Source of the DNA: an uncultured Pseudomonadota bacterium
GTDB taxonomy: Bacteria; Pseudomonadota; Alphaproteobacteria; UBA9219
Length of the DNA stretch: 35,733 bases
Assembly (NCBI GenBank): GCA_903920205.1
Contig: CAIXLI010000225.1
Coordinates: 1 to 35,733, forward strand
Direction: 5' to 3'
Shown: positions 4,302 through 23,527 of the stretch, in pieces
Layout of the letters: each line of letters starts with the position of its first letter
Position numbering within the stretch: position 1 is the first letter of the stretch
Notes under the pieces: model-generated
The model's input: only the letters and a program-made list of their open reading frames with translations
Database searches by the model: none
What the model was told of the DNA's origin: nothing
Program-made: the position numbers and the translations under genes

Positions 4302-5087
4302 TTAAACAGGTTTCTGGAACAAATGATCTCGATGCCATGTGAGCCGATAAGCGTGCTCTTTTGTTATACGACGCAAAGCCATTTTGTTGTGTAGGCCAAG
4401 AGCAATCTGATCTTGTGCTGATAACTGGCTTGAAATCAGAATGCTGCCGCTATCATCGAAGGAAATTAGTCCCGCATCAAATGCAGCATCAAGATGCGCA
4501 GCTAAAAGCAAACCATTATAAGCGTCCAGTCGTTCAGCATCAGTTTCACAAACTGCCCATGGTATAATATGGCTTGCGCGCAAAAGACGTGGCTCCGACA
4601 AACCCGTTACGGCACAGTGCCCATTCCAGTACGTCATAAGGGCTTCTCTGAAGATGTCTTGCCCGACACGCTGCACTACCAACCGTTCAACTTCAGTTGA
4701 TCGAGGTAACGCCTGCGTTCTGCTTTCGAACTCGCGCAATGGTTCAATGGGTAATGCACGCGCAAGACGCCAAATTTCACGCACAAGATAATGAAGTGGC
4801 TCAGTGTCAGCGACAACAAAAGCCGAAAAGCCTGAGGGGACGATCCCGTCCCACTTCGTCCACCGCCCCATAATATCTACAACTACGCCTGAATGGTTTG
4901 TTGCAACGACATATCCATTATCTGAACATGCAAGCCGCAGCGATGCGGGAGTCCCAAGACCATCATAGGCAAGCCAGCCTTGATGCTCCCCCAGCTTGAT
5001 CCCAAACCCTTCGTCGATAGCGGCTTTATCTAGACGGATACGATTTATTTGAGACAACGTCATATTTTCCACCATCAGTCTGATCAC
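4302..5087 (-). CDS. HNH endonuclease (HNH_2-type), last gene of defence operon
   Basis: The protein has 261 residues. The C-terminal part (about residues 150-235) holds the HNH fold: CAVTGLSEPRLLRASHIIPW, then AYNGLLLAAHLDAAFDAGLI. This matches the HNH_2 pattern (C-x-x-TG, the His pair region SHIIPW near residue 170, NGL-x-L and FDxGLI) of predicted restriction endonucleases. The N-terminal 140 residues have no motif I recognise and may bind DNA or a partner. The start is GTG 5087, overlapping the ATPase stop by four bases (GTGA), which implies translational coupling; ATG 5075 is an alternative. By position it is likely the nuclease partner of the upstream ATPase, as PtuB is of PtuA in Septu. 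That pairing is inferred. Confidence 0.85.
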   Translation of the reverse strand: MIRLMVENMTLSQINRIRLDKAAIDEGFGIKLGEHQGWLAYDGLGTPASLRLACSDNGYVVATNHSGVVVDIMGRWTKWDGIVPSGFSAFVVADTEPLHYLVREIWRLARALPIEPLREFESRTQALPRSTEVERLVVQRVGQDIFREALMTYWNGHCAVTGLSEPRLLRASHIIPWAVCETDAERLDAYNGLLLAAHLDAAFDAGLISFDDSGSILISSQLSAQDQIALGLHNKMALRRITKEHAYRLTWHRDHLFQKPV

Positions 5088-7060
5088 AAATCACGTTGGA
5101 GCAAACGACCTTCAGCTGGAGTTCCCATGAGTTTGAGACACACCCATGGTGCTTTTTGAAATTCGGCTGGAGGGTTTGACGTGGTTGTGACGATATATTG
5201 GAACAACGGTGAGCCGTTAACATCCTCTAATGATCGGATAAGCCGGAAAAGTTCGTGATAGATACTTTCACCCAGATCAGCTTCTCGCGGGCTATCATGT
5301 AGCAAAAACGCAGGGGCGCAGGTTTTTCCTTCGATGCTCAGGCACAATGCTGAAATATCGAAAGAAAGAACCTTCAAAGAGTCGATAGCTGCAGTCGAGC
5401 GGTTTCCGCCCTTATTAATCGTGACATGAAGGCCTTTTCCATCAAGAATTACTTTGCCCTCGGCCTCGCCGCCGAGAAGCCGTCTCACTATCGGATCGAA
5501 CTTCTCCGTTAAAGAATAAAAAACTTTGGCTTGCTTATCCCGAAGCAAATTCGCCTTTTCGCGTTTATCGTCTAGAGTTTTTGTCAAACCACGGACTGTC
5601 TCAACCGCCTCATTATGTTGTTGCTGCCAATCGCCAAATCTAACTGCGTCGTCAAGCAAACGACGGGCGATATACCATTGTGTTTCGCGAGCATCTCTTG
5701 ATGCTTCCAATGAGAACAACCGGCTACGAATTCGCTCATATTTTTGGATGGCAACCGCCTGGAGCGGCTTAATTTCATTTAGCCGCACCTTCAGTCCAGA
5801 TAATAGTTCTTTCTCCTTAGTCAGATCACCCTCTTTTGCTTGTCGCTCTTTTTCTATATCGGCGGCGCTCGGCGCATTGCGCAGTCTTTTGCAGTTTTCC
5901 GATAAGATTTTATCTACGGACGGATCACCTGAAGTGCATACAGCAGACTTTGCTTCAACTTCTCTGTAAGACAGCGCGGATACTTCGCCATCAATGTTGC
6001 TTATCAGGCGTTGAATGATCGGCACCTGCGCATCGATTGATACAAGCTCTTCAGACAGCTTGCGCTTTTCGTCCTCAGCGGCATCGAGTTCACTTCGGGC
6101 CGCATCAATATCCGTAGGTTCGTTCCCGGAAGGAACTTTTGCTGCCTCGGCCAACTTATCTTCTGCAGCTTTGCGGAGAACATCTATTGCCATATCTCCA
6201 TCCGCAACAACACCATCCGGCAGTTTAAGTTCTTTTATTAGTCGCGCTTTTGCCTTCTCAGCAGCCCATGCCTTGTGATTGGATTCCTGCTCAACAGCGC
6301 GTTTTTCTTCGGATAGAGAGGCAATTTCAGCGCGCAGCGCGTTCTCCTCTGCCGTAATAGCTTTTAAGAAAGCACGAAGTGCATCCAGCGTTTCCGATGC
6401 CGAAAATGATCGTACGAGAGAGTCGGAATCTGACTCAGAAGACCTCCATCCGAGCACATCATTGAAACGACATTCCTGATCTCGCGTTAACCACGCCAAT
6501 GCAATAGGCCAACCCCTCTGGCCTTCCTTGAGTTTTGGTATTAAGGAAGAAACAGCGGACGTGATAATGGAGCTTTCCACAGCATCAAGAAATGCATCGA
6601 TTTTTGTGGACTGAGATTGGCTGGAGGCAAGTGCGTCTAGGTCTCCGTTGAGAACGGCATCATGCATTTTGTTCGCTCCAAGCGAACGGACGATTGCCCA
6701 GCAATTGCCATTCAAAATGACTTCAGCTCCGACTATGCCATTAATGAATGTTTCACCGATAAGATCACGTTGTTCCTTGGGCGCAAAACGATCCTCTCCA
6801 AGGCAATAGCGCAGCAATCGACAGAAAAGTGTTTTGCCGCTGCCATGTCCTATCGTCGCTACCCCATCTGGTTCTGAAGGATCTATGCCATCAGGAGACC
6901 AAACAATATTCAGCCCAGGACGAAGGGGAATATCTCGAAGGACTTTGCCGGGTTCTTGCCATATCACCAAACGGCGCACCCAAAAACGTGGCTCTGTTTG
7001 TCCTGCTTCAGGAACAACTACGAGGTCAGGCTTTTTGATGAGATCAAGCTGCCTCGGCAT
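5084..7060 (-). CDS. SMC-like coiled-coil AAA ATPase
   Basis: This 658-residue protein has a split ATPase head. The Walker A is near residues 70-77 (IGHGSGKT), a long charged coiled coil spans about residues 230-490 (for example EENALRAEIASLSEEKRAVE), and a C-terminal head half contains AFLLHDSPREADL near residues 585-597, which carries the Walker B-like acidic residue. The layout matches SMC, RecN and DUF2326-type defence ATPases that sense DNA ends or structures and license a nuclease. The first Gly of the usual G-x-N-G-S-G-K motif is Ile and the Asn is His, a variant loop. AAGGGGGTGGG lies just upstream of ATG 7060. The first 17 bases overlap the methyltransferase gene and the stop overlaps the HNH start. 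Confidence 0.8.
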   Translation of the reverse strand: MPRQLDLIKKPDLVVVPEAGQTEPRFWVRRLVIWQEPGKVLRDIPLRPGLNIVWSPDGIDPSEPDGVATIGHGSGKTLFCRLLRYCLGEDRFAPKEQRDLIGETFINGIVGAEVILNGNCWAIVRSLGANKMHDAVLNGDLDALASSQSQSTKIDAFLDAVESSIITSAVSSLIPKLKEGQRGWPIALAWLTRDQECRFNDVLGWRSSESDSDSLVRSFSASETLDALRAFLKAITAEENALRAEIASLSEEKRAVEQESNHKAWAAEKAKARLIKELKLPDGVVADGDMAIDVLRKAAEDKLAEAAKVPSGNEPTDIDAARSELDAAEDEKRKLSEELVSIDAQVPIIQRLISNIDGEVSALSYREVEAKSAVCTSGDPSVDKILSENCKRLRNAPSAADIEKERQAKEGDLTKEKELLSGLKVRLNEIKPLQAVAIQKYERIRSRLFSLEASRDARETQWYIARRLLDDAVRFGDWQQQHNEAVETVRGLTKTLDDKREKANLLRDKQAKVFYSLTEKFDPIVRRLLGGEAEGKVILDGKGLHVTINKGGNRSTAAIDSLKVLSFDISALCLSIEGKTCAPAFLLHDSPREADLGESIYHELFRLIRSLEDVNGSPLFQYIVTTTSNPPAEFQKAPWVCLKLMGTPAEGRLLQRDL

Positions 7061-10000
7061 TTACCCACCCCCTTGTGGCATCATCTGGCAGGTTGCGAAC
7101 GATATCGTCTATGCCCTTACGTTCAAGGACGCCAACGATCATCCATGCTCGTCCACTTGCCCACTCTGGAGTCCTAATCGTATCAATATTAGTCCCCGAA
7201 GACCATGTGTTAGGCTGTGCAGCTTCTTCTAACAAAATGCCATTTTCTGTGGCAAAACCAACGGCAGTCGCCCAATGTTGGTTTGTTCTCGCGACAAGAG
7301 ATGAAGTCCCCGCAGATAAAGGTTCGGCTTCATTACCAACGAGACGCCGCCAAGTCGCAGCTTCTGTGTTTGTCAGGTAAGGTAGCAAGAGGCGTGGTTC
7401 CAGAACAAAGATCGCTGCCAGTCTGACTTGCCGTGCAGGAACTGGCTTGGCCATCGTCTTTAAGATGGCAGCAAGAGCAAGCCCCGTTCCCGTGTGTTGA
7501 TCAAGTGCCGCGCCAACACGCTCCCATGCACCATCATGGAGTGCTGAAACGTTGGGAACAACAGGTGCGGGAGCTTTGGCTGGAGCGGTCGCAGGAAGTG
7601 GAACTTTTTGTGTTTCAGCAGCCATTCCGGCAATGCGATCCCACGCTTCCAGCACGAGCTTTTCCGTGCGGAATTCTCCGTAACGGGCCTCTTCTTTGGT
7701 TTTCAGAACGCGGAATGTCTCGGAAGGATAGTCGGGGCCTTTGGCTTTCGCGGGATCAAGGATGTATTGCATCTCTTCCTTCGACAGGCCGTATTTTTTG
7801 CCAAAGAAAGCATCAAGTTCCCCGCGCAGAATGGCGCGACGGTTCTCGTCCCAGATGAATGGTTGCCCTGTGTAGCCCAAATCTTCTGCCCATGGGCGCA
7901 AGGCGTAACTTGTGTATGTCAGCTCAAGAATCCGTGGAACGACGAAATTGATGTCCGCGTCAGCAAAAGAGGAAGGCGGCAGAACTGCGAGTTGCTTGAG
8001 ATAGCTGTAGGTAAGATGTGTCCCCCCAACTGATAGGCGTGCTACGAAATCAAACGCCATGGATGTCCACAACGCTAACGAGACGGCAGCCATTTTAGCG
8101 GGTACATTCATATAAAAGAGAGGCATATTGTGACCAACCCCGACTTTTGGGAACACACTTGCTATTACCGTGCGTTCGTTAGTCGCATTGGTTATATCTC
8201 GCCAGCCCATAAGCCAGCGTGGCTGCTTACGATTGATGATAGATGATACCAAGCTTAAAGCGTCGCCAATGCCTTCGTGTAAAAAATCAACATCGTCAGA
8301 ATTCAGAGGGGTTTCCGTTTGTGCTTCGACACCGTTGGCAATAGTTTTAGGCTCCAGGAGCCAGCGATCAGTTGTCTTGCCAAGCGCGGCACGCCAAGGC
8401 CGATCACGACCGAGAATGCGCACAAGGTCATCCTCGCGCATGGGACGACCTTCATGGACATGAAAATATCCCGCCAGCCATTCTGCTAACCCTTTAAGGC
8501 AACGTTCGGTACTGTTCTCTCTCCATGCTCGCTTTAACCCCGCAGGAACACGGGCGGCCCGGAACTGCACTTCATCCACGGGAACCCAATAGCGTGGCTG
8601 AGGTTCGAAATTCACATCCTGTTTCTCAGCCAATGTAGAATCTCGTGCGCCTTCTTCATCCTCCGACGAAGCACCGGCATATGTGGCCCAACGGTGATCA
8701 AAATGATGAATCATTTTGGCTTCGTACAGGGGAACATACCGACAAATATTGCCATCAATCTCCTTCAGCCAATCGCTCATGTCCCGAGTCCAGCCATCTA
8801 CAATTAATTGCCGCTCGCTCCTAAATAATTCAGAAGCTGACGTCATATTGAAAAGGCCTTGCTGAAAAGAGACACCCCACGGATTAATATCGCCCCCAGC
8901 ATTATTCGCGCGCTCCTGAATTAATACCGGTGCCTGAACATAAAATTTTGCCGCCAACTCAGCATCTTTGCGGGAACGGAAAACTGGGGCTGTCTTGGTA
9001 TTGGGATTGATATGAGCAATTTGTTCGGCGGTTAGAGTAAAACGCCGCTCAGCTTCCTCAAAGTGGCTCGAATTGGTGAGAAAAAACGAAAATTCCGCCT
9101 CGTCGGAATTCCCGATTGTAAGCAAACAAAATTTCATTCGGCTATCAACGGCAGGAAATAGCTTCTCTCGGTTCTCAAAATCGATCAGCCTAGCTAAGCG
9201 CCCCTTTTCCACAAGATTGCCGAAAAAAGCGCTGGTAGAACTGTCTGTTGCAATCCCTGTCGGAACAATTATTCCAGAGCGCCCTTCTGGACAAGCTAGG
9301 TTTGCAAAATGTTCAGCAAACAGAGCATAGGTATTAATTTTGCCAACAGCGGTTAATCCATATCGACCCGATGTGCGAAAAAATTCATTCACAGCTTCAT
9401 GGATTTGTTTGTCAAAAATGAATTGTTCCCAGATTCTAGGGCTATTGACCCCAAGGCAAGCAATTGCTTTTTTTCGATCATCACCGGACAACGCTGCAAT
9501 TTCAGGCAATTTTGCTGCAAAATATTCTTGCTCGTCTAACTGAGATACTTCCCACGGTGGATTGCCGACGACAACATCAAACCCACCACGCGCGAAGACG
9601 TGCGGAAATTCCAAATGCCAGTGAAGTGCGCTCACTTTATGGGCGGCATCTGAAGCTATTCCGACGAGAGGGCCGTAAATGCTCTCGCCTCGCGCTGCCT
9701 TCCACACATGCTCTGTCAAAGGCATGATCGGACGAGCACGTTCGCCAGGGCCGGGAACAGGGCCTGTTTTCGGGATGAAGAACGCAGCGACAAACAAATC
9801 ACAGGCAGTCTTTAGATTTAGCCAGTTTTGACCTGTGTGGAGGTGCTCGAATGCTTTCCGTTTGGCCGAAATTTCTTCCAGTGAATTTTCTGGCATATCA
9901 ACCAGAGCACGCGCTGCGTCGATTAAATCAGCAGGAGGGCGAAGATCAGAAAGGAAGCCAGTTGCGCCCTGACCGTCGCGCTGTTCCTTGTTGTGCTTTG

Positions 10001-11900
10001 TGTATGCCTTGGCGATTTCTTTCACATCACCGGTCAGTGCCTTAAATGCCTCGTCAGGAATGCCCTTGCGCAGCATTTCGAGATCAAAGACGCCAACAAG
10101 GCTGTCACCACATCGTATGCGGGCATCTAGAAATGAAAGAGGTTTGCCCGGCTCCAACGCTTCAATCCAAAGAGCTACCTTACAAAGCTCAACAGCCATG
10201 GGGTTGCGATCGACGCCGTAAATGCAATGCGAGACAACTTCACGCAGCGCGTGCTGAAATTCCATCTGTGATGGAGCACCGGGACTACGCAACTTGGCAA
10301 TCCGCGCTGCTGCGCGTCTGGCTGCACCCAACAGAAAATGACCAGAACCGCAGGCCGGATCGATAATCGACAGTTTCAGAATTTCCGAGGCGGGATCTGC
10401 TGGATTACGCGCTTCTGCATCATCCAGTACAGGATCAAGCGTGGAATCGAGCAAGAGCTTCACAAGAGAGTCTGGCGTGTAATAACTGCCAGAGGTCTTG
10501 CGCGCATTGCCCTTGGTCTCTAACCCTTCGGCAAAATCAAAACTACGCGTTACCGCGTTTGCGCGGGGCGTTAGCTCCAGCAGGCTTTCATAAACGGAGC
10601 CAAGTTCTTCTGTCTCCATGTCTCGCCAATTGACGCGCGTCAGAGGTTGTCCTTCAGGACGAAGCCATGCGAGCCGCCATATCGCGGCCAAGAAACGCCT
10701 ATTCTCAATTTTCGCATCTGTTAGGGTCGGCATCTGCCCATGAGAGAAAAGGCCGCCAAGTGCAGGTAGTCCTAATCGCGGCTCGCCGCGAGATAGCGCC
10801 GCAAAGGTCGCCTTTAGTCCTTCCCAAACATCGACGTTGCGATCCCATGCCACGCGCCGCATGCATCGTTCACGAAGACGGTTTAATGAATAGCCTTGGG
10901 CATACGTTTTGCGGACGGCTTCAATGGCATCTGTAGGATGGAGAAGATCCCTATCTTCAGCGGCGAATAGGAAGATCAGGCGGTAAATCAGACGCAGCAG
11001 TTCTTCGAAATAGACCTGCTGGGTTAGCTTGCCTTCAGTAAGCGCCTGCCGCAAAGCGTCATTGGCGCGATTTTCCACAAATCCTTGGCCGAGTTCGAGC
11101 AGTGCAGATTCAACACCCTGACGCAGCTTGTCCCGCGCGGCCACACCTTCAACGCGGCCACGGTCACGCCAGCGCTCAAGCGCGCAGTCACTTGGAGACT
11201 TGCCTGGATCACCGAAACGGCTTTGATGAATAAGAAGCCATAGCGCAGAGAAGTCAAAGAAAAGCCCATCGGAAAAAATCTTGGCTATATCGAATTCGAT
11301 CCAGGCTGGCCGCGTAAGACTGATGTTATCGCGCATAAGCCGCAAGACCAGTCCGTCAGAGGCAAGCCCCCAAAGAATGCTGTCCTGCGCATTCAGATAT
11401 TCCTGCAAAAGCAAAGTAGCTGATCGACGACGCGTTCCATCCGCGAACTGGGCAAGACTTTCATCGACTCCGGCCTTGCGTGAGCCGTCAGCAGACGCTG
11501 GCGCTATAACAATCGGGACATGACCATCAAAAGCAGCATATGGGACAGGAAACTCGCGTGCGCCCAAGCGAACAATGGGCTGCGGCGCAACGGCATCGAA
11601 GCCAAAGCATTTCTTAAGAAGCTCAGCAACAAATTGGCTGGATGCATTTACGTTCTGTCGGCGAGATGCAGAAAACTTGGCCCAAAGAGCCTCTCCGATA
11701 CGATAATAGCGCGCGATTTCATCCCGAAGTTTTAGACCAGGTTCAATGCCATAGCTTTCCTCAGTCTGGTCGTTGGCTTCAAAAGTCGCAATCTTGGCAA
11801 CCATATCAGGTGTGAGAAGCGCGCCAATAATCTCTATACCCGCGAAATCAAGTCGTGCGCTGCGACGGGATTGCCGGAGTCTGGAGGAATTTCGTGCCAT
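7044..11900 (-). CDS. Large Eco57I/PglX-like N6-adenine-type DNA methyltransferase (DrmMI-like)
   Basis: The product has 1618 residues. I chose ATG 11900 because GAGGAAAG lies directly upstream; the frame is open to 11930 but that start would overlap the helicase gene. After GSYYTPDSLVKLLLDST (about residue 470), the SAM-binding motif I is DPACGSGHFLLGA (residues 514-526) and the catalytic motif IV is GNPPW (N780), which marks a gamma-type amino methyltransferase, most likely m6A. Residues 1-450 resemble the N-terminal region of type IIG/PglX-like proteins, but the expected PD-(D/E)xK residues are not evident, so nuclease activity is doubtful. The region after residue 800 should include target recognition. 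In class 1 DISARM a large methylase of this kind marks self DNA; that role is inferred here. Confidence 0.85.
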   Translation of the reverse strand: MARNSSRLRQSRRSARLDFAGIEIIGALLTPDMVAKIATFEANDQTEESYGIEPGLKLRDEIARYYRIGEALWAKFSASRRQNVNASSQFVAELLKKCFGFDAVAPQPIVRLGAREFPVPYAAFDGHVPIVIAPASADGSRKAGVDESLAQFADGTRRRSATLLLQEYLNAQDSILWGLASDGLVLRLMRDNISLTRPAWIEFDIAKIFSDGLFFDFSALWLLIHQSRFGDPGKSPSDCALERWRDRGRVEGVAARDKLRQGVESALLELGQGFVENRANDALRQALTEGKLTQQVYFEELLRLIYRLIFLFAAEDRDLLHPTDAIEAVRKTYAQGYSLNRLRERCMRRVAWDRNVDVWEGLKATFAALSRGEPRLGLPALGGLFSHGQMPTLTDAKIENRRFLAAIWRLAWLRPEGQPLTRVNWRDMETEELGSVYESLLELTPRANAVTRSFDFAEGLETKGNARKTSGSYYTPDSLVKLLLDSTLDPVLDDAEARNPADPASEILKLSIIDPACGSGHFLLGAARRAAARIAKLRSPGAPSQMEFQHALREVVSHCIYGVDRNPMAVELCKVALWIEALEPGKPLSFLDARIRCGDSLVGVFDLEMLRKGIPDEAFKALTGDVKEIAKAYTKHNKEQRDGQGATGFLSDLRPPADLIDAARALVDMPENSLEEISAKRKAFEHLHTGQNWLNLKTACDLFVAAFFIPKTGPVPGPGERARPIMPLTEHVWKAARGESIYGPLVGIASDAAHKVSALHWHLEFPHVFARGGFDVVVGNPPWEVSQLDEQEYFAAKLPEIAALSGDDRKKAIACLGVNSPRIWEQFIFDKQIHEAVNEFFRTSGRYGLTAVGKINTYALFAEHFANLACPEGRSGIIVPTGIATDSSTSAFFGNLVEKGRLARLIDFENREKLFPAVDSRMKFCLLTIGNSDEAEFSFFLTNSSHFEEAERRFTLTAEQIAHINPNTKTAPVFRSRKDAELAAKFYVQAPVLIQERANNAGGDINPWGVSFQQGLFNMTSASELFRSERQLIVDGWTRDMSDWLKEIDGNICRYVPLYEAKMIHHFDHRWATYAGASSEDEEGARDSTLAEKQDVNFEPQPRYWVPVDEVQFRAARVPAGLKRAWRENSTERCLKGLAEWLAGYFHVHEGRPMREDDLVRILGRDRPWRAALGKTTDRWLLEPKTIANGVEAQTETPLNSDDVDFLHEGIGDALSLVSSIINRKQPRWLMGWRDITNATNERTVIASVFPKVGVGHNMPLFYMNVPAKMAAVSLALWTSMAFDFVARLSVGGTHLTYSYLKQLAVLPPSSFADADINFVVPRILELTYTSYALRPWAEDLGYTGQPFIWDENRRAILRGELDAFFGKKYGLSKEEMQYILDPAKAKGPDYPSETFRVLKTKEEARYGEFRTEKLVLEAWDRIAGMAAETQKVPLPATAPAKAPAPVVPNVSALHDGAWERVGAALDQHTGTGLALAAILKTMAKPVPARQVRLAAIFVLEPRLLLPYLTNTEAATWRRLVGNEAEPLSAGTSSLVARTNQHWATAVGFATENGILLEEAAQPNTWSSGTNIDTIRTPEWASGRAWMIVGVLERKGIDDIVRNLPDDATRGWVNAEAA

Positions 11901-11907
11901 GCTTTCC

Positions 11908-14700
11908 TCAGATCTTCGGTAAAAGAACATATAGGCCTATCACGTCAGCTGGCGTGATGGTCTCGACTTTAACGGACGCCTTAGAACCCAGAGCTTGGCG
12001 AACGCGAGAGTGATCTTCCGCCAGTATCCCAGCACGTTCCACAGCATAAGCATCTAGCGCGGGCGATAGGCTGTCCAGTTTGGCAACTACTGAAGCAAGC
12101 TGGGCGTCTCGCACACGTTCAATAACATTTCCGCTATCTGCTTCGAGCAACGCAAATGCTTTTTCTCCATCAGCCACGCGAACGTCATTCTGAAAAGCGA
12201 TTGCGGCAGCTTCTTCTGCCATAGCAAATTGTGGCCCAAGTCGACCGCGTGAATCGATGCGATGTCGTATTCTTAATAACAACAAGGTAGTGACTGCCTC
12301 GACCGCTCCAGATTCCCACACACCACAACGCGGTAAAGTTGCTGGATCATCCTGTCTTGACTGGGGATCAAGCGCATTTTCAAGAAACGTTTCGGCGAGC
12401 ACACTCGGCAAAGGATGTGCGCGGTGAATTGACAAATATCCTGCGCGGGGACGAGCTTCGAATGCCACCTTCAGGGGCTTCGCTGTAGCGTCGTCATTAA
12501 GCAGCCCTTCGGTTGCAAAACGTTCCCTGAGTGTTTCCGGAACAAGGTGCAGTGGTGCCGTATATCCCCCAAGTGACTGCGGCGTCAGAGCAGCCCCCAA
12601 ACGCATCAGCGACCGTGAAACAAAACGTTCCGTATCCTCGAATCCCCCAAGCGATTTACGCGTGGCCTCCCATTCAGGAGCTACTTCTTCCGGTTTGATG
12701 CTTCGCTGAGCAAAAATCGTGCGCGCTTTCTTTTCCTTCTCAGATGCATTGATCCAAGCGAGGTCAATCTCTTTTGCCTCTTGGGTATCCGTAACTGTGA
12801 AATCCAAATTCAATTGGCGCCTGTCTTTAGCACGCAGCAGCACGGCAGACATGAGCGCTTTGGTTAAACTGCCGTTTTCATCCGGCATAGGGACTTGCAC
12901 GCCCGTTCTTTTTTCTATGGCGCGGGCTTTACGCAAAATGACATCGAGGACAGCTCCATCCACCGGATTGTTCTCACCGTAGATCAGGATTGTGCGGACT
13001 ATTTCATTTTTTTGTCCAAATCGATCGACACGACCATCCCTCTGTTGATGTCTGGTGGGGTTCCAAGATAAATCATAATGAACAACAGCGTTAAAATATG
13101 CCTGTAAATTAATGCCTTCAGACAAGCAGTCGGTAGCAACCAGAATCCGGTTATCTTTCTCTCCGAGAGCCTCAACACGTTTTTCACGCTCTTCGGATGG
13201 GAGCGCCCCCGTAACAACCTCGACGGTGTGGCCCTTAAATGCCTTTTGCAGTGCTTCGCCGACAGCCTCAGCTGTAGCAATGTAGCGACAGAAAACAACT
13301 GGCGAATATTTTCCTTCAAGTAGGTTATTTATGGAAGATTTTAGAATTGAGAACTTTGGATCACGTGCAAAGTTCTCACCAAGCCGTTCAGCCTGATCGA
13401 TCAGAGACTGCAAGCGAGAACTTTCGAGTGCTGCCCCTGGTTCCAGATCATCTTCTACGGCCTCTTCATCATCAACTGTGCTTGCAGCGATCTTTTCAGC
13501 ATCTGCGTTGTCTGCATCGAGGATAGCGCGCGTTCTAAGTGCGCGAAGCGCAGCAGCTGGACTAGATCCGACGCACCGCATCAATGCTAAAGTTCCCCAG
13601 AAAGCCAAGCGACGACGCAGGTCACCTTCTTCAGCTTCAACAGCTTCGGCACAATAGTCGAGCACATCACCAAAAAATCGTTCAGAATCGCCTGAGAGTT
13701 TGTATTTCAGTTCCGTTATCTCTCGTTGCGGGAATATCCCCGGCTCACGCCAAGCATCAATGTCTGCTCGACGCCTCTGGATAAAATGGCTGGCAAGGCG
13801 CTCGCGCAGACCTCGATGTGTATCATCTGCGGCATCAGAAAGCCCAATAAAGTCGGGATGAAGCAAACCAAGGAGGTTATGGAAGGCCGTCTCATCACCA
13901 GAATGAGGCGTAGCGGTAAGCATAACTATGTGCCGTGAGTTATCTTCAGCCAACTTTTTGAGAAGTTCAAAACGACGATGTCGCGATTGACCGCCAGTTA
14001 CGGCAGAGTGAGCTTCATCCACAACAACCATTTTGGGACACGCCCGAAGAAAATCATCAAGGCGTCTATCGCTCTTGATGAAATCCATACTAACTACAGT
14101 GTAAGGGTAAGCCTCAAACACACTCATGGTATTTGGCAAATCGCGTTCTAAGCGCACTGCCTCTGATGCAGTGACGGGCGTCGCTGTTAAAGAAAATTTT
14201 GTTTCAAGTTCAGATGTCCACTGCTCCACAAGATGCGGCGGGCAAAGCACTGAGAAACGATCAATTTCTCCACGATCAATTAATTCGCGCAGAATTAGTC
14301 CGGCCTCAATAGTTTTACCTATACCGACATCATCAGCAATCAAGAGACGAACTATTTCTTGACGAAGTGCCATCATCAATGGCGCAAGTTGGTAGGCGCG
14401 CGGTTCAAAATTAATCCGACCAGCTCCACGGAATGGGCCGGCGCCTCGCCGCAAGGAAAGTTTTAGAGCATCCCGCAAAAGGAGCGCTGCTTCACGAGGG
14501 CCAGCTCGCATATCATTCGGAGGAGCAATCGAAGTATAAGTTACATCTTCAAGCTCAAGCTCTGGAACAATAGTCTCAACGTCCTGTTCGGAACCGCTTA
14601 ATGGCCGAAGACGTAGGGCATCCCCTGAACTCAGGACGATCCACTGGCGATTTCGGGCACACACCAGTTCGCCAGGAGAAAAGGTGGCTACTGCATTCAT
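11908..14700 (-). CDS. drmD: SNF2-family helicase, DISARM DrmD-like
   Basis: The 930-residue protein opens with a FSPGELVCARNRQWIVL segment and LRLRPLSGSEQDVETI, then GAGPFRGAGRINFEPRAYQL. I recognise this N-terminal pattern from DrmD proteins of class 1 DISARM. Helicase motifs follow: IADDVGIGKT (Walker A, residues 121-130), DEAH (228-231), LTATPHSG (261-268), and in the second lobe ATDCLSEGINLQ and QRDGRVDRFGQ (residues 553-563). It should be an ATP-driven DNA translocase. The start ATG overlaps the preceding stop by four bases and the stop is seven bases before the methylase start, which fits stoichiometric co-expression with both neighbours. The family call is from memory of the motif pattern. 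Confidence 0.85.
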   Translation of the reverse strand: MNAVATFSPGELVCARNRQWIVLSSGDALRLRPLSGSEQDVETIVPELELEDVTYTSIAPPNDMRAGPREAALLLRDALKLSLRRGAGPFRGAGRINFEPRAYQLAPLMMALRQEIVRLLIADDVGIGKTIEAGLILRELIDRGEIDRFSVLCPPHLVEQWTSELETKFSLTATPVTASEAVRLERDLPNTMSVFEAYPYTVVSMDFIKSDRRLDDFLRACPKMVVVDEAHSAVTGGQSRHRRFELLKKLAEDNSRHIVMLTATPHSGDETAFHNLLGLLHPDFIGLSDAADDTHRGLRERLASHFIQRRRADIDAWREPGIFPQREITELKYKLSGDSERFFGDVLDYCAEAVEAEEGDLRRRLAFWGTLALMRCVGSSPAAALRALRTRAILDADNADAEKIAASTVDDEEAVEDDLEPGAALESSRLQSLIDQAERLGENFARDPKFSILKSSINNLLEGKYSPVVFCRYIATAEAVGEALQKAFKGHTVEVVTGALPSEEREKRVEALGEKDNRILVATDCLSEGINLQAYFNAVVHYDLSWNPTRHQQRDGRVDRFGQKNEIVRTILIYGENNPVDGAVLDVILRKARAIEKRTGVQVPMPDENGSLTKALMSAVLLRAKDRRQLNLDFTVTDTQEAKEIDLAWINASEKEKKARTIFAQRSIKPEEVAPEWEATRKSLGGFEDTERFVSRSLMRLGAALTPQSLGGYTAPLHLVPETLRERFATEGLLNDDATAKPLKVAFEARPRAGYLSIHRAHPLPSVLAETFLENALDPQSRQDDPATLPRCGVWESGAVEAVTTLLLLRIRHRIDSRGRLGPQFAMAEEAAAIAFQNDVRVADGEKAFALLEADSGNVIERVRDAQLASVVAKLDSLSPALDAYAVERAGILAEDHSRVRQALGSKASVKVETITPADVIGLYVLLPKI

Positions 14701-17700
14701 GATGACTTCTTTCCAAGTAGCGAGGTGATGTGCGCGAACGCTTCCGCGCGCTTCTTCTCATCTTTTGAGAGGACTACAAGCTCAATGCCCTTTGCAGCAA
14801 TCTTCTCACGAAGATGTGGAAGAACTTTTTCCTCTTCAATAGCAGCTACCCTAGCTAATCGCCATACGAGAGTGATTGTTATGTCGCCAATCGTAAGAGG
14901 CTCAACGTCCGGAGCAGGACAGCCTCTTATGTCTACCGTTACGGGTATAACCTTAATCGGCAACGAATTATCCGAAAAAGCCAATCGAAGAAGTATTTCT
15001 TGTACTATCTTGTTGCGTCTATCAATCAGCTCATGATCTGGCTGGTTGAAGTAGGATAGCAAACAGCGATAACACCCGGCCACACAGCGAACACCCGGGA
15101 CTACGCTCAACGTATCTGCGCCACTTAAAGCAGCCGCCTGTAATGAATTAGGATCAAAATGCATAATCTCTAATGCTTTCCGAGCAACAGTGTGAAAACT
15201 GTTTCTGTCATTCATAAGCCGCGAAAGCGCACCTGCACCGCCTTCCGCTGCTTCGTAAAAAAACAAAGCGCGACGATCTTTACGATTGGGCGTTGGCTCT
15301 GCCAGAATTTCTCCTTCTTCGAGCTGGTAGACAGCCTCAATGCCGCGCGCTAGCGCATGCTGAAGCGTGGCCATTACTGTGTTTGTGTCGTCACTTGTCT
15401 CCGCAATCCACTTTTCTGGAAAACGGAGAAGCAGCGCATTCTTCCGATCTTCAACGACTGGTGTAATTCTTTGCCTGACATTTGTGGGTAATCGTTCTTC
15501 ATTATCCTGCGAACTGGCTGCTCCGACCCAATAGCCACTTTTAGGGTCTATGCAGAAGCCAATTTCACTTTCGTCCTTGCGGCGCCTGAGTCCCTTATTG
15601 ATGCGTCGCACCAAAGCCGCAGGCGCGAAAATAGCTGTCAGGATTTCACCTGTTGTATCGCTTACCTCCCTCGTTAAATTTCCTGACGCCTGCTGAAAGG
15701 AGAATGTCGTCTGAAGGTCAAAACCTTGTCGACGGCGATCTTCATCATTTGCCGTTATCCGCTCAACCTGTTTCGTGCCAACATTCTCAATTTTATGTAG
15801 CTCGCGGATGATGTTGGATCCATTCAATGGGTGGCCACACACATGGCATTTTTCAGGCGGCTCTCCATCATGGCTTGCTCCACACGTTGGACAAACGGCA
15901 GTGCTAAAAGTGGGCAACAGGCCATCCGGGCCACCGCCGGCCTCTTTCAACAAAGCCCTGTCAACACGGTAGGCGCGCCCCTCATGGTAAACCAAGCTTC
16001 CGGGGCCGAATTCAGCTATTGCGAGGAATCTCGCCCGCTGCAGATACCGTTGCCCTTTGCCTCCTTGTCCACCTGGAACGAAGGCCATTAAAGGCAATCG
16101 AGGAAAATTGTATCCTGGCAAGAAGCCTTCTGTGGCCAAGTAACGATAAACATAAAAATCAGAACCTTGATTTTCAGCACCCTGTAGAAGCAATTTAATT
16201 TGAGTATTTCCAGCCGCCTGTCTTCCTTCCGCTGCCCTACGTTCAATCGGAGAGATTGAGTAATCCTGCAGCGTGCGGGTGGCGTCGTCTACTTGTCGTT
16301 CTGCCGCACGAAGGAGATCTCTCCAGCGATCGAAGGCACATGCAAAAATGCCGGGGGCATTTGCAATTATCGTTTTAGCATGTTGTTTGATGTCGATAAG
16401 CCAATCGGGCAATACATCTCCATAATCCCGTTCCAGCGCAGAAAGTACGGCCCTCACGCACTTTTCAGCGGCCAAAACTGTTTCTTGTGATGATATTCGG
16501 CTCCAAATATCAGCCAGAAGTGGTTTGTTTTGGGACGTCATATCCAGATTTCTAGATATGGCGCGATCAAGCTCTAGCCCACTCGCTGCTAACCATTCTG
16601 CATGAAGATGACTCGCCACTAAATCCGGATTAGTGAGATCAATTGATGGAGGTTTAACAACACCATCCACCATAGCCTTGGGTTGTTCGAAAAAATACTG
16701 ATCATGAGGACTCTGTGCGGCACAATACGCAACGACGAGTGCCGCTTGACCACTTCTTCCAGATCTGCCGCTTCGCTGAGCGTAATTGGCAGGTGTCGGG
16801 GGAACATTGCGCATGTAAACAACATTCATTGTGGATATGTCGACGCCCAACTCCATTGTGGGTGAACAAAAGAGCGTTGGGAGAAATCGGTTGTCCTCAC
16901 GCAGCTCTTTTAGCCGATCTATTTTCGCGGCTAATGATTTCTGGTCATCAGAAGAAAAACGAAACCGCGCCTCACGCAGTTCACGCAGATCGCTATCCAC
17001 CTGAGCGGTATGTTCGCGCCCCTCTAAACCGAAAAGCGCACCTCCGCCTGCCGCTAATAGTTGTGCGATTTCTTCATAAAGCCCCCGAAAGAAGGGGTTC
17101 TTGTGTTCCGTGTTATCTTCATGCTCTGTCGCTTTGAAAGCTATGGACGAGGAAATAAGTCGCCATCCGTCGCCGCCGACAGGTGACGCAACTTGAGTGG
17201 CGATACCTTGTTTTTTTGCAGCCCTCAATATGGTTTCGATAATTTCAACAACTTCTTGACTGGATGGGTGCTCCCCAGAAAAGGTCATTTTCTTGAGTTC
17301 GCGCCCTACAAGACTTTGTGAACTACCTCGCAAAATAAGGGCTTCATCTTTTTGTTGTAAGTCATTTCGGCTTGGTGGTCTAGGCATGAACACAGATGCT
17401 GCAAAAAACCTTTCATCATCAAGACACCAGGGAGCCTTGATAAGGCTTCGCATGCGCCCCACGAGACTTTCAATTTTTAGCCTATCCAACGCATCGCATT
17501 CAACAGCAAGGCCTCTGCGCATAGTATCAAACAAAACCTTGGCTGCTTTTTTTCTTTCTTCTGATGATGCCGCACTCAGAACGCGAGACCCGCTAAAAAA
17601 GCTTTCTTCAAGAACCATTTCATCAAGAGATAGATAGTGAGCTTCTATAAGCCCAAGCTGTTCGAGATTGGGATTTGTATATCTCCAGCCTCTGCGTTGG

Positions 17701-19922
17701 TCGACCCAGAACCGGTGTGTTAATCCCTCACGCAACGTACGTTCTGCGCCTAATAAATTTGCCCCTCTTAGGTCTGGCTCAATCAGCCATTCGCTTCTTC
17801 GATCAATGTTTGTGCTAGTAAAGCCTAAAGTTCGCTGTACAGCTTGGCCGATTTCATCTTCCTGCAGTCCTTCGGTTCCCGCCCCAGACAAAGCAGCCAA
17901 GACCGCACCACGGAAAAGCGTAACAAAAATAAAATCATTAAAGTGACCAGCCTGAAGTGCTGCATCTTGACGGTTGTCTGTAAATGCCAAAAGTTTCTGC
18001 GTGATAGGGGGTATCCCAGCATCTGGCGCACGCATCCAACGAAGGATTGCCGCAATGATAATTGTAGTAGCAGAACTTCTTCCCTCAGCACTGAGTGACG
18101 CCAATCTATTAATGTCTCGCGTGGAGTCGCTGTGATAATCACCACATGCGGGACAGAATTTAAATCTTCCTGGCAAGAACCAAGCGTGCCGCCCATCTAT
18201 GCCGCAAGAGCCATTGGGGCGAACCAATAGCATTTCGGCACGCGTTTTGCGGTATGAGGGCTTTAACCGAAGCTCTCCAGACTTTGATTCCTCGAGCCAT
18301 GCATCAGGATAATCTTCATCTCTTCCTTGAAATTCAAAGTTGCCCTCCACAGGTTCCGGCATAAGGAAGCCCCAACGCCCCGCCTGATCGTTGGAGTCTT
18401 CTTCATCATTGATTGGAACATCGTCAATCTCTCGCTTCTCAAATCGTTGGCCTTCATCATATCTCTTTAAGGTTACCGGATGATGTTCTTGCCCACAGCG
18501 ACGACAAAAATGTGTTGCATAAAGCCGCTTCTCTGGATGTTCAGGATCAAAAATCTGTCCGTCAAAAGTTACCGTCCGAGAGCCAGATACATCTAAAGTC
18601 GAATATAATCTTCCTGCGCCAGAAATAAACTGGTGAAGCTTAAAGGCAAAGAATGGTTCATCGCTACCATTCGGTACATTCCGCTCTTTTTCCGAGAGGC
18701 TGAATGCAAGTAACGCAGATTTAAGACTTTTCTCACAAACCTCTAAAGCCACTCCAGAATCTTTGGCCAAAGTTTCCGCAGCCTCTTTCAATGATTGGGG
18801 GCTGGCGCGTCGAGGTTTGCTCTCAACACATTTGAGGCCGAGCCTAGTTTCAACCCATATGGCTAATGGATCGCGAGCAATTGCTGCGTTAGACATTCCC
18901 TCATAAATCAAGCCCGCATCTGCCCGGTCGATCGCAAGATTAAGATCTGCAAGACCATGATCGGCAGACCTCCGAATATCGGTTACTCGTTTGAGGGTTT
19001 CTGTGACGATTGCATCACGTGAAATTTTTGTTCCAAACAAGCGTGATGCAACATCAGCTACGATTTGATTCTGATCTGCTTCTTCACCCTCATTGGCCAT
19101 AGTAGCTGAAGTTCCGATGCAAGTCGGAGGATACGCAGGATCGCCAACGCGCACACGGAGGCGACGCATTAGCATAGCAACATCGGCTCCTTGACGGCCC
19201 CGATATGTATGCAATTCGTCCAGGACAACAAATTTTAAGCCACGACAATTCTCAATTACACGCTGGTCAAGATCAGCCTGACGCGTCATGAGAAGTTCAA
19301 GCATCATAAAGTTTGTTAACAGGATGTCAGGAGGGTTATTTTTTATTTTCTCCCGCTCTTCCTGAGTCTCTTGCCCCGTATATCGGGCAAACGTAACTGG
19401 TACATGGCTATTTGACGTATGGAGAAATTTCTTCAGTTCTTCCTGTTGGCTATTAGCCAATGCGTTCATGGGGTATATAATGACGGCTCGTGTTTTAGGA
19501 GCTTCTCCAGCAAGCTTTGCTTTGATAATGGCGTCCACAATAGGAATAAAAAAGCATAGCGACTTTCCAGACCCCGTTCCTGTGGTTACTACATAGCTTT
19601 TGCCGCTAAGAGCCAAGCCAATTGCTTGTTCTTGATGCCTCCGCAGCCGCAAGCTTTGGTCCTGCGCGTGTGCCGAGGCTCGGCCATCCCGAAAAATTTT
19701 TGCACACTCTTTAGAAAGCCCACCACCTTCAACTAAAGATAAAACCGACCCGCCTTCCTCATAATGAGGGTTAAGCTGTATCAGCGGCTCAGGCCAGAAT
19801 TTCCGGCCTTCATACAACGTATTTACTTTGGTTTGTAATTCCGAGGATCGAATGCGCGTGAATGATCGCGCAAATGCCGTATACTGCTTTAATACCCAGT
19901 TATCTAGCGAGAAAACATCCAT
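14697..19922 (-). CDS. DEAD-box helicase with C-terminal DUF1998 region (DrmA/DrmB-like or DruE-like)
   Basis: This 1741-residue protein has its first helicase lobe at about residues 95-280: VVTTGTGSGKS (Walker A, K120), IIYPMNALANSQQEEL, and VVLDELHTYRGRQGADVAML with DELH at 235-238. The second lobe appears only near residues 990-1070 (SPTMELGVDIST, QRSGRSGRSGQ), so about 700 residues are inserted between lobes. Cys clusters, probably zinc sites, lie near residue 472 (CRRCG), 590 (CPACG), 1344-1362 (CPTCG, CHVCG) and 1611-1618 (CVAGCYRC). The last is part of the DUF1998 region together with EAAEGGAGAL (about 1553-1562). DISARM normally splits these functions into DrmA and DrmB, and Druantia DruE also joins a helicase to DUF1998. 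AAAGGAT precedes ATG 19922. Confidence 0.85.
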   Translation of the reverse strand: MDVFSLDNWVLKQYTAFARSFTRIRSSELQTKVNTLYEGRKFWPEPLIQLNPHYEEGGSVLSLVEGGGLSKECAKIFRDGRASAHAQDQSLRLRRHQEQAIGLALSGKSYVVTTGTGSGKSLCFFIPIVDAIIKAKLAGEAPKTRAVIIYPMNALANSQQEELKKFLHTSNSHVPVTFARYTGQETQEEREKIKNNPPDILLTNFMMLELLMTRQADLDQRVIENCRGLKFVVLDELHTYRGRQGADVAMLMRRLRVRVGDPAYPPTCIGTSATMANEGEEADQNQIVADVASRLFGTKISRDAIVTETLKRVTDIRRSADHGLADLNLAIDRADAGLIYEGMSNAAIARDPLAIWVETRLGLKCVESKPRRASPQSLKEAAETLAKDSGVALEVCEKSLKSALLAFSLSEKERNVPNGSDEPFFAFKLHQFISGAGRLYSTLDVSGSRTVTFDGQIFDPEHPEKRLYATHFCRRCGQEHHPVTLKRYDEGQRFEKREIDDVPINDEEDSNDQAGRWGFLMPEPVEGNFEFQGRDEDYPDAWLEESKSGELRLKPSYRKTRAEMLLVRPNGSCGIDGRHAWFLPGRFKFCPACGDYHSDSTRDINRLASLSAEGRSSATTIIIAAILRWMRAPDAGIPPITQKLLAFTDNRQDAALQAGHFNDFIFVTLFRGAVLAALSGAGTEGLQEDEIGQAVQRTLGFTSTNIDRRSEWLIEPDLRGANLLGAERTLREGLTHRFWVDQRRGWRYTNPNLEQLGLIEAHYLSLDEMVLEESFFSGSRVLSAASSEERKKAAKVLFDTMRRGLAVECDALDRLKIESLVGRMRSLIKAPWCLDDERFFAASVFMPRPPSRNDLQQKDEALILRGSSQSLVGRELKKMTFSGEHPSSQEVVEIIETILRAAKKQGIATQVASPVGGDGWRLISSSIAFKATEHEDNTEHKNPFFRGLYEEIAQLLAAGGGALFGLEGREHTAQVDSDLRELREARFRFSSDDQKSLAAKIDRLKELREDNRFLPTLFCSPTMELGVDISTMNVVYMRNVPPTPANYAQRSGRSGRSGQAALVVAYCAAQSPHDQYFFEQPKAMVDGVVKPPSIDLTNPDLVASHLHAEWLAASGLELDRAISRNLDMTSQNKPLLADIWSRISSQETVLAAEKCVRAVLSALERDYGDVLPDWLIDIKQHAKTIIANAPGIFACAFDRWRDLLRAAERQVDDATRTLQDYSISPIERRAAEGRQAAGNTQIKLLLQGAENQGSDFYVYRYLATEGFLPGYNFPRLPLMAFVPGGQGGKGQRYLQRARFLAIAEFGPGSLVYHEGRAYRVDRALLKEAGGGPDGLLPTFSTAVCPTCGASHDGEPPEKCHVCGHPLNGSNIIRELHKIENVGTKQVERITANDEDRRRQGFDLQTTFSFQQASGNLTREVSDTTGEILTAIFAPAALVRRINKGLRRRKDESEIGFCIDPKSGYWVGAASSQDNEERLPTNVRQRITPVVEDRKNALLLRFPEKWIAETSDDTNTVMATLQHALARGIEAVYQLEEGEILAEPTPNRKDRRALFFYEAAEGGAGALSRLMNDRNSFHTVARKALEIMHFDPNSLQAAALSGADTLSVVPGVRCVAGCYRCLLSYFNQPDHELIDRRNKIVQEILLRLAFSDNSLPIKVIPVTVDIRGCPAPDVEPLTIGDITITLVWRLARVAAIEEEKVLPHLREKIAAKGIELVVLSKDEKKRAEAFAHITSLLGKKSS

Positions 19923-19994: not shown

Positions 19995-21773
19995 TCATTG
20001 TGTTGCGATACCTGCTCCTTCGGAATTAAGTTCGGAGCGAAGCGCGGTGAAGAGCAGATCGCGGCGAGCTGCACAAAACTCTAAAAAAACGCTATATGAG
20101 AAAATTGGCATCGGAGGAAACTTGTGCATTGCCAGAAAATATCCTCTTTCGGTTTCATTCGGGAATTGCTTCACAAGCCATTCTTCAAAATCAGTATCTG
20201 ATTTAATCTGGTTTGGCCCACCTTGAAGCAACTGCAAATTCGAAATATTGTCACGCATTGCAGATGCCTCCTTGGCAGTTTCCGGCGTCAATCCCTGAGT
20301 AATCAGACGCCTTTCGGTCATCTTGGAGCGGGGGTAGATATGGTCAATATGGAACCGACTTGAGTAATCGAAATTGGGATAAAGTAAACTTAACAACAAG
20401 AAAGTGCGATTATCTCCATATTCCATGTCGAGTAGAGCTTCAATCTCATCCTCTGAAAAACGTACGGAACGGTTCAGTCCAGTCAATCTGGCGTTAATGG
20501 CTTCGGCAGGAAATGAATCACAGGATGCTTCGGCAAGCACACCGCGAATTGCCGCCAAAATAGTATCGGCCATTGACCCAAAAGTGCCGCGCAACAAAAC
20601 GGTTATAAGCCACCTGCGAATGATGCCACGATCTGTCCTCTCGGCATTAGAAATCAGAAAACTATTTGTAGCCCCACGCTTGCGTAGATAATAAGCGATT
20701 GGAATTAGTGCATTGACAGACAGCAGCGAGCGGTCGGTAAAACCAAACGATTGCACTAACTGCATCGTTAGTGAAAGAGCGCACCGGATCGAGCCCCATT
20801 CGGTTTCAATCTGTGCCATATTGTCATTACTAAAATTTGTAACTTTGAACTTGATGTCTCCAATGTCGGAAAGCACTAATGATGCTTTCAGCACGAAATC
20901 CTTATCAACTGTTAGCTCGTCACTGTAGCTTTTCAGCTCATCGACTAGGCCATGAATTTCCTGCCTGGCATCACGCGTCTTCCACAATGCCGTGGCAAAA
21001 GACAGCAGTAGATCTGAATAGGAAAGCTTTGTCCCACCGCTGTTTATGCGGATAAATATTTGCAAAACCTTATCAAGATCGCCGTCCTTCTCCAAAAAGT
21101 AGTTTATTGCCGGTTCGGTATTAAAGCACTCGCAGAGTCTTGCTAACGTGTTGGCAGCAAAGTCACGTTGTGATTTTGGTGCAGAGCTTATTTTTTCGTC
21201 AGTCATAAAAGCCAGAACATCTGCCACACATCGCATTTTTTTGAAAATCTCAGGTATTGCCACCCACCAACGTTCTGCATCAACTCCTGCCTCTTCGGCA
21301 GTTAGAAAGCGAAGCGCATAACGCTTTTCACCATCGCTTTCGTCAGCAGGATGCATCAGGTCTATATAAAGTTTTCGTTCCGGATATGCCGATAGGTTTG
21401 ATCGGCGCTTATTCGGCAATCGGCAGGCATAGGTTCCGGCAAGACCGATTACGAGAGATGTCAACCGCTGTTGGCCATCTAAAACCGCCGTTACATCTTG
21501 CCTGGAGCCAAGTTGTGCCGGTTCATTATGACGCGCCAGAGCCTCATGATAGGCCGTAAGAAATCTATAGAACTGCCACTTCCCTGCATGACCTTCGGGG
21601 ATACTCCAAAACAGAAAACTACTGATCGGATATCCGCGCAAAATAGAATCAAAGAGCATTTCGATCTGCGCTGTGTTCCAAACAAACTCGCGTTGGATCG
21701 ATGGCAGAACATACTTGCCATCAAGAACATTTTGAACCGTCTGTCTGATTGTTATCGGGGTTTCAAAGGGCAT
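19995..21773 (-). CDS. DUF262/DUF1524 GmrSD-like nuclease, first gene of defence operon
   Basis: The 592-residue product starts at ATG 21773, where AGGA lies eight bases upstream; ATG 21782 is an in-frame alternative. The N-terminal DUF262 (ParB-like) domain shows IQREFVWN (about residues 26-33), the NTP-binding DGQQRLTSL (residues 99-107) and IFIRINSGGT (about 240-250). The C-terminal DUF1524 HNH-type domain shows HIDHIYPRS near residue 477, followed by NISNLQLLQGGPNQIKSD. GmrSD-type enzymes are known as NTP-dependent type IV restriction endonucleases that cut modified phage DNA; here both halves are on one chain. It opens the operon, 72 bases ahead of the DUF1998 helicase, behind an AT-rich promoter-like region. 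Whether it acts alone or with the helicases is not visible. Confidence 0.85.
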   Translation of the reverse strand: MPFETPITIRQTVQNVLDGKYVLPSIQREFVWNTAQIEMLFDSILRGYPISSFLFWSIPEGHAGKWQFYRFLTAYHEALARHNEPAQLGSRQDVTAVLDGQQRLTSLVIGLAGTYACRLPNKRRSNLSAYPERKLYIDLMHPADESDGEKRYALRFLTAEEAGVDAERWWVAIPEIFKKMRCVADVLAFMTDEKISSAPKSQRDFAANTLARLCECFNTEPAINYFLEKDGDLDKVLQIFIRINSGGTKLSYSDLLLSFATALWKTRDARQEIHGLVDELKSYSDELTVDKDFVLKASLVLSDIGDIKFKVTNFSNDNMAQIETEWGSIRCALSLTMQLVQSFGFTDRSLLSVNALIPIAYYLRKRGATNSFLISNAERTDRGIIRRWLITVLLRGTFGSMADTILAAIRGVLAEASCDSFPAEAINARLTGLNRSVRFSEDEIEALLDMEYGDNRTFLLLSLLYPNFDYSSRFHIDHIYPRSKMTERRLITQGLTPETAKEASAMRDNISNLQLLQGGPNQIKSDTDFEEWLVKQFPNETERGYFLAMHKFPPMPIFSYSVFLEFCAARRDLLFTALRSELNSEGAGIATQ

Positions 21774-21853
21774 CAACAGCATCCTGAACGAGGGGAACTA
21801 CCGCTTGCGCAGGAGTTTTGCAGAACCTGATTTTATGGGGCTTTTGTAATTAA

Positions 21854-23368: not shown

Positions 23369-23527
23369 TTGGGTTCTCCTCAGGGACAAATTCAAGCTGT
23401 GAACGCCGACATTTGTCTTGGATAGCACCCAGATGTGTCAGATTCGGTCACACTCGCGTTTTATCCGCTTTATTTCCTGTGTAATGCCTTTAAAGTTCCA
23501 GCAGTGACATCGTTAACGGAGAAGAAA
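23369..23527. promoter_or_regulatory. Divergent promoter region between lipoprotein operon and WYL regulator
   Basis: These 159 bases separate two divergent genes and must hold at least one promoter each. A TGTAAT at 23480-23485 could be a -10 for the WYL gene, without a convincing -35. An imperfect dyad, GTGT...ACAC around 23435-23453, might be an operator. WYL regulators often bind such divergent regions, including their own promoter. Assignments are tentative. Confidence 0.3.

Follow-up and report, generated by a model that had tools for sequence, protein, structure and literature searches.

On the minus strand of a 35,733-nucleotide stretch of DNA from an uncultured Pseudomonadota bacterium (the whole stretch analysed, hereafter the window), one open frame raises the question of which kind of system would carry DrmA-like and DrmB-like parts on a single chain, and which of its proteins would cut DNA. 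The frame is open from an ATG to a stop codon (14697-19922, 1741 aa), as the original prediction had read it. Homologues were full-length or nearly so in about 70 of the 80 other loci fetched, so the frame is the product of neither chance nor mis-assembly. Its parts, and the evidence on which each was assigned, are as follows.

14697..19922, minus strand: ArmC, a YprA/DruE-family SF2 helicase (frame, PADLOC/Pfam profiles, homologues, trees)
19053..19661, minus strand: RecA1 lobe, residues 88-290, with GTGSGKS, DELH and SAT (Pfam, motifs, tree, model)
17031..19052, minus strand: inter-lobe insert, residues 291-964, about 675 residues (alignment, predicted model)
16569..17030, minus strand: RecA2 lobe, residues 965-1118, with motifs V and VI (Pfam, tree, model)
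15060..16568, minus strand: helical extension and OB-CON-DUF1998 canopy, residues 1119-1621, DrmB-like (Pfam, model)
14700..14936, minus strand: degenerate Vsr-type nuclease domain, residues 1663-1741 (lost catalytic positions, predicted fold)

Pfam placed DEAD at residues 95-278, Helicase_C at 995-1058 and MZB/DUF1998 at 1520-1621. The first lobe contains the Walker A motif GTGSGKS (115-121), DELH (235-238) and SAT (272-274), and the second TMELGVDIS (from 1022) and QRSGRSGRSG (from 1049). The lobes had been placed some 700 residues apart, close to the spacing measured here. CxxC clusters had likewise been noted in the insert and the C-terminal region; four such pairs, two within the insert (C473/C476, C590/C593) and two within the C-terminal half (C1344/C1347, C1359/C1362), show no variation across an alignment of 44 homologues. 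The CVAGCYRC motif that closes the canopy is also present, although it lies at residues 1613-1620 rather than near 1611.

AlphaFold models were made from alignments of the window ArmC and its relatives only (mean pLDDT 86.1 for residues 1-1135 and 82.6 for residues 1136-1741). The best match of the first was MrfA (Z 27.6, 427 residues spanning 1-1114), and within it the insert is predicted to run from helical to beta-rich and back to helical. The second gave just two significant Foldseek matches, MrfA and the DrmB chain of DrmAB. Since the two models match MrfA and DrmB respectively, DrmA-like and DrmB-like parts do share one chain, as had been claimed and as they do in the rest of the family; the comparison with DrmAB that was proposed with the original prediction thus finds its DrmB-like element in the C-terminal half. 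The DruE structures 9tu7 and 9wae were absent among the structural matches listed for residues 1-1135 and were named by a sequence search, so that ArmC and DruE are compared here by sequence only.

armC belongs to a group of five minus-strand genes, tightly packed, with neighbours overlapping by 4 to 23 bases. The other four are:

11908..14700, minus strand: ArmA, an SNF2/BrxHII/DrmD-like helicase, 930 aa, with a 4-bp overlap with armC (profiles, relatives)
7044..11930, minus strand: ArmB, a PglX/DrmMI-like N6-adenine methyltransferase, 1628 aa (profiles, relatives)
5084..7060, minus strand: LmuB-like SMC-type ATPase, 658 aa, accessory and absent from some relatives (profiles, relatives)
4302..5087, minus strand: HNH_2 endonuclease, 261 aa (profiles; S172-H173...N191 invariant in 58/58 relatives)

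In ArmB, motif I (DPACGSG) lies at 10341-10361 and NPPW at 9552-9563. A plasmid of Mesorhizobium AR02 is annotated with exactly the same five genes, and the order armC-armA-armB was kept in nearly every judgeable locus among the 80 homologues fetched by sequence. This set of a YprA/DruE-type helicase, a BrxHII/DrmD-like helicase and a PglX-like methyltransferase is shared with ARMADA Type I, for which the order YprA-like, BrxHII-like, PglX-like has been given; ARMADA was named in a survey of about 52,000 YprA-family helicases (Bell et al, 2025; PMC12458937). Also shared are the OB-CON-DUF1998 canopy on the helicase chain, the helical extension after RecA2 and, probably, an insert with zinc motifs. 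The published insert comprises BrxA-like, beta-barrel zinc and MarR-like domains (PMC12458937), with which the layout of the window insert appears to agree in the predicted model.

A helicase phylogeny, the other check proposed at the outset, gave the same placement. In a maximum likelihood tree of the two RecA lobes, in which ARMADA was represented by plasmid homologues in place of published ArmC sequences, the window protein fell in the ARMADA I clade (97/100) with members from Rhodococcus, Nocardioides, Deinococcus, Thermus and cyanobacteria. The clade adjoins DruE and stands apart from YprA/MrfA, DrmA, DpdJ and ARMADA II. The YprA/MrfA rows form a group of their own (100/99), which excludes an MrfA-type repair helicase, the case that the original prediction had named as its refutation. 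MrfA shares the helicase and canopy folds (Z 27.6 and 13.9), but it is a protein of about 750-850 aa with no large insert, an MrfB exonuclease partner and no defence operon. From sequence, structure, operon order and phylogeny together, the window protein is almost certainly the ArmC of an ARMADA Type I system. A phage search found no full-length relative.

In published work, antiphage activity has been shown for ARMADA Type II alone; protection there is non-abortive and requires each of the four genes as well as the Walker motifs of the helicase and the NPPW of the methyltransferase (PMC12458937). The Type II system of E. coli NCTC 12900 has the same three protein families but a reversed gene order, an ArmC of about 2100 aa and, after armC, an ArmD (a GajB-like UvrD helicase with a RelE-like domain); profile searches recognised no ArmD-like gene in the window operon. 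The two ARMADA II rows lie outside the ARMADA I clade with weak support, and the relation of the two types was not judged from the tree.

The window operon is therefore a known system, and it is also a variant that departs from the published description of ARMADA I. The ArmC proteins of both ARMADA types are said to end in a predicted active Vsr-type nuclease (PMC12458937). Intact tails of this kind occur in Rhodococcus, Deinococcus, Thermus, Planktothrix, Roseomonas, several genomes of the window's phylum (L086-L093, whose tails carry G after DF) and others. The Vsr site reads E, D, D-G and H in all 19 intact relatives. Because the motif by which tails were called intact or degenerate itself contains D, DG and H, the E position alone counts independently. 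The degenerate tails number 91 including that of the window. In 89 of them the DGxHH block is deleted, and the catalytic D is replaced by A, P and other residues. An alignment of 44 relatives shows not one invariant position in the tail domain. Judged from these alignments, the catalytic residues of the Vsr tail are lost in the window ArmC and its relatives.

The window tail has no Pfam match, and the three intact tails scanned gave weak DUF559/Vsr matches. The model of residues 1663-1741 matched 3hrl, an endonuclease-like protein (Z 8.0, 76/94 residues), and, at Z 6.5, 3r3p, the structure of the I-Bth0305I homing endonuclease's catalytic domain, which has a Vsr-like fold. Because the model's alignment held no intact tail, this match is separate evidence for a Vsr remnant. 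A Z-score near 8 is modest, and the model supports rather than proves that the tail is a Vsr domain with its fold retained.

Only one intact nuclease was recognised in the operon proper, the HNH protein. A gene of the same family lies downstream of armC in 71 of the 72 degenerate loci with enough flanking DNA (70 of 72 at the first count), whereas this family, to which the claim of co-occurrence is limited, was found in none of the 13 intact-Vsr loci with enough flanking DNA; all these loci were gathered by their likeness to the window. Among the first 70 is Hydrogenimonas (L118), where the gene was found across the plasmid origin, and the count of 71 was reached with Zhongshania (L031), where it lies about 16 kb downstream of armC. 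In the one remaining locus, that of Kozakia (L125), IS21 genes directly follow armB and there is no trace of the HNH gene. None of the 75 loci with 8 kb of upstream DNA has it upstream of armC. In 58/58 relatives the HNH site keeps its S-H and N unchanged. Across the loci of the 72/13 count, the spacing between armB and the HNH gene ranges from an overlap up to 7.7 kb, and the genes between them vary (none, LmuB-like, AAA_15-like or UvrD/GajB-like). The linkage of armB and HNH thus persists while the cargo between them changes.

Our preferred reading, to which we give a probability of roughly 0.8, is that the window holds a five-gene ARMADA I operon in which the Vsr domain of ArmC is a decayed remnant and the separate HNH protein encoded downstream does the cutting. 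The proposed relocation of the nuclease from cis to trans is well supported by the pattern of co-occurrence and by the predicted fold of the tail. The operon departs from the published ARMADA I both in its degenerate Vsr domain, in place of a predicted active one, and in that its branch adds the HNH gene and often an ATPase gene, neither of which is mentioned in the main text of PMC12458937.

The HNH protein could instead do something other than replace Vsr. On that account the operon would be an ordinary ARMADA I with an extra nuclease, for example one that restricts modified DNA, and the Vsr remnant would reflect unrelated decay. Defence islands commonly hold HNH genes, the C-terminal half of the protein matches models of stand-alone HNH restriction enzymes, and its distinct N-terminal half may sense something. 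However, full-length copies were found almost exclusively in degenerate-Vsr ARMADA loci or their remnants and in none of the 13 intact-Vsr loci; among 398 genomes of the window's phylum there were six, four in degenerate-Vsr ARMADA loci, one beside ArmA/ATPase fragments and one on a short contig. Furthermore, the gene directly follows armB, often with a 4-bp overlap, in many loci that have no ATPase. We consider this alternative unlikely.

In a tree of full-length proteins the degenerate clade (99) is nested within intact-Vsr lineages, so loss of the Vsr site is derived. The branch includes many Pseudomonadota and also Verrucomicrobiota, Lentisphaerota and Thermodesulfobacteriota. Hydrogenimonas groups with an intact-Vsr protein (85); this may be a second event, or the row may be misplaced. 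Two degenerate tails outside the clade, those of Chlorohelix (L115) and Streptomyces (L113), lost the motif independently, and the DNA read in these two loci contained no HNH gene of the window type. The association of the HNH gene with a degenerate Vsr domain is therefore strong in count and statistically non-independent, belonging to one derived clade and perhaps to two events; a test on independent pairs found only one or two and had no power. The identities of the HNH proteins and of ArmC are correlated (Spearman 0.78, 48 loci), as plain co-inheritance would also give.

Readings that leave ARMADA altogether fare far worse. The first, a Druantia system whose DruE stands beside an unrelated DrmD, is very improbable. 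DruE3 is indeed the best PADLOC model for ArmC (1.6e-89), DruE is the neighbouring clade, and DruE of Druantia Type III (PMC13192584, PMC13316683) is the nearest sequence family, likewise a single chain with helicase, zinc modules and DUF1998. The DruE rows nevertheless form a separate clade (100/100), and DruE works with DruH and has C-terminal PLD nucleases or none; profile searches recognised no DruH, DruA-D or DruM/F/G gene in the operon, and relatives from many classes retain both the DrmD-like and the PglX-like gene. The suggestion of a DruE-like protein beside DrmD was thus right about the nearest family and about the DrmD-type SNF2 helicase that follows, but the set as a whole is the published ARMADA I operon. 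A natural DrmA-DrmB fusion, that is, a one-chain DISARM, is scarcely credible: although DISARM also combines a helicase, a DUF1998 module, an SNF2 helicase and a methyltransferase, the halves of ArmC match the MrfA core and DrmB, and ArmC has DrmD-like and DrmMI-like neighbours, the DISARM DrmA profiles NF038325/NF038326 matched weakly (E 0.0011 and 0.0078; 14-16 bits against cut-offs of 950/999), PADLOC DrmA reached 7e-14 at best, no gene for the PLD nuclease DrmC is present, and the DrmA rows, entered as RecA segments only with a short RecA1 segment, form their own group, which refutes the fusion at present sampling. Nor is a fusion needed to account for the single chain, since the canopy normally lies on the helicase chain in the YprA family (PMC12458937), MrfA itself included; DISARM, with DrmA and DrmB on two chains as originally stated, is the one consistent split.

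For ArmA, a PADLOC assignment as DpdE (PDLC02853, 656 bits, full length) was rejected, since the match stayed below the NCBIfam DpdE/DrmD cut-offs and Dpd genes are absent. This 'DpdE' model probably collects ARMADA ArmA proteins.

If the preferred reading is correct, the operon might work as follows. ArmB would methylate host DNA and so mark it as self. MrfA is a 3'-5' ssDNA translocase, and DruE engages ssDNA-containing intermediates, with DNA threaded through the helicase. ArmC, which carries the DrmB-like canopy itself, is probably a 3'-5' ssDNA translocase like MrfA; by analogy with work on MrfA, DrmAB and DruE, it would act with ArmA to load on or open unmodified invading DNA. The HNH protein would then cut the opened DNA instead of the dead Vsr domain, with the ATPase possibly acting as a gate. 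A more tentative extension, possible but doubtful, is that the nuclease function moved from Vsr to HNH while the dead domain stayed on to recruit the HNH protein, as a docking or regulatory site, the ATPase and the extended ArmB being optional.

A widespread branch breaks the rule of an active Vsr nuclease at the end of ArmC and suggests what replaces it. It raises the testable question of whether ARMADA needs its nuclease and whether one in cis can be swapped for one in trans, and it makes the HNH protein a natural target for mutation. Searches for three-gene ARMADA systems would miss the cutting enzyme of this branch.

Several further arrangements were seen around these genes. In Sphingomonas gilva (L063:10001-14044) one frame fuses residues 1-1268 of ArmC with the C-terminal portion of the HNH protein; the genes between are missing and the frame is a deletion remnant. 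At L216:5788-6933 a full-length HNH gene adjoins short ATPase and ArmA fragments, so that the locus is a decayed operon copy. Near the intact-Vsr operon of Planktothrix there is a short gene annotated as HNH, which belongs to a different family. In the intact-Vsr locus L087 (L153:2-5034) the place of an HNH gene after the ATPase is taken by genes for a GajB-like UvrD helicase and an EVE/AAA_5 protein, another interchangeable module.

The window ArmB is extended at its C-terminus by about 190 aa (7044-7625, residues ~1436-1628). The extension was found in 11 of 12 loci with an LmuB-like ATPase, in none of 51 without any such ATPase and in 1 of 18 in which the ATPase match was weak; it may couple the methyltransferase to the ATPase.

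Upstream of armC, 72 bp away and on the same strand, lies a GmrSD-type (HEC-05) gene (19995-21782). DUF262 or GmrSD-like genes adjoin ARMADA in Paracoccus (L123), Methylobacterium (L026) and L024, and the GmrSD-type gene may be one that recurs beside the system. A regulator with WYL and WCX domains (23435-24517) is encoded upstream of the operon on the other strand; in Croceicoccus (L122), WYL genes likewise precede the operon. Finally, the window encodes a TM0106-family RecB-like nuclease fused to an IGHMBP2-like helicase (26002-29421, 1139 aa); in L022 and L057, homologues with 42-43% identity are encoded a few kb upstream of armC.
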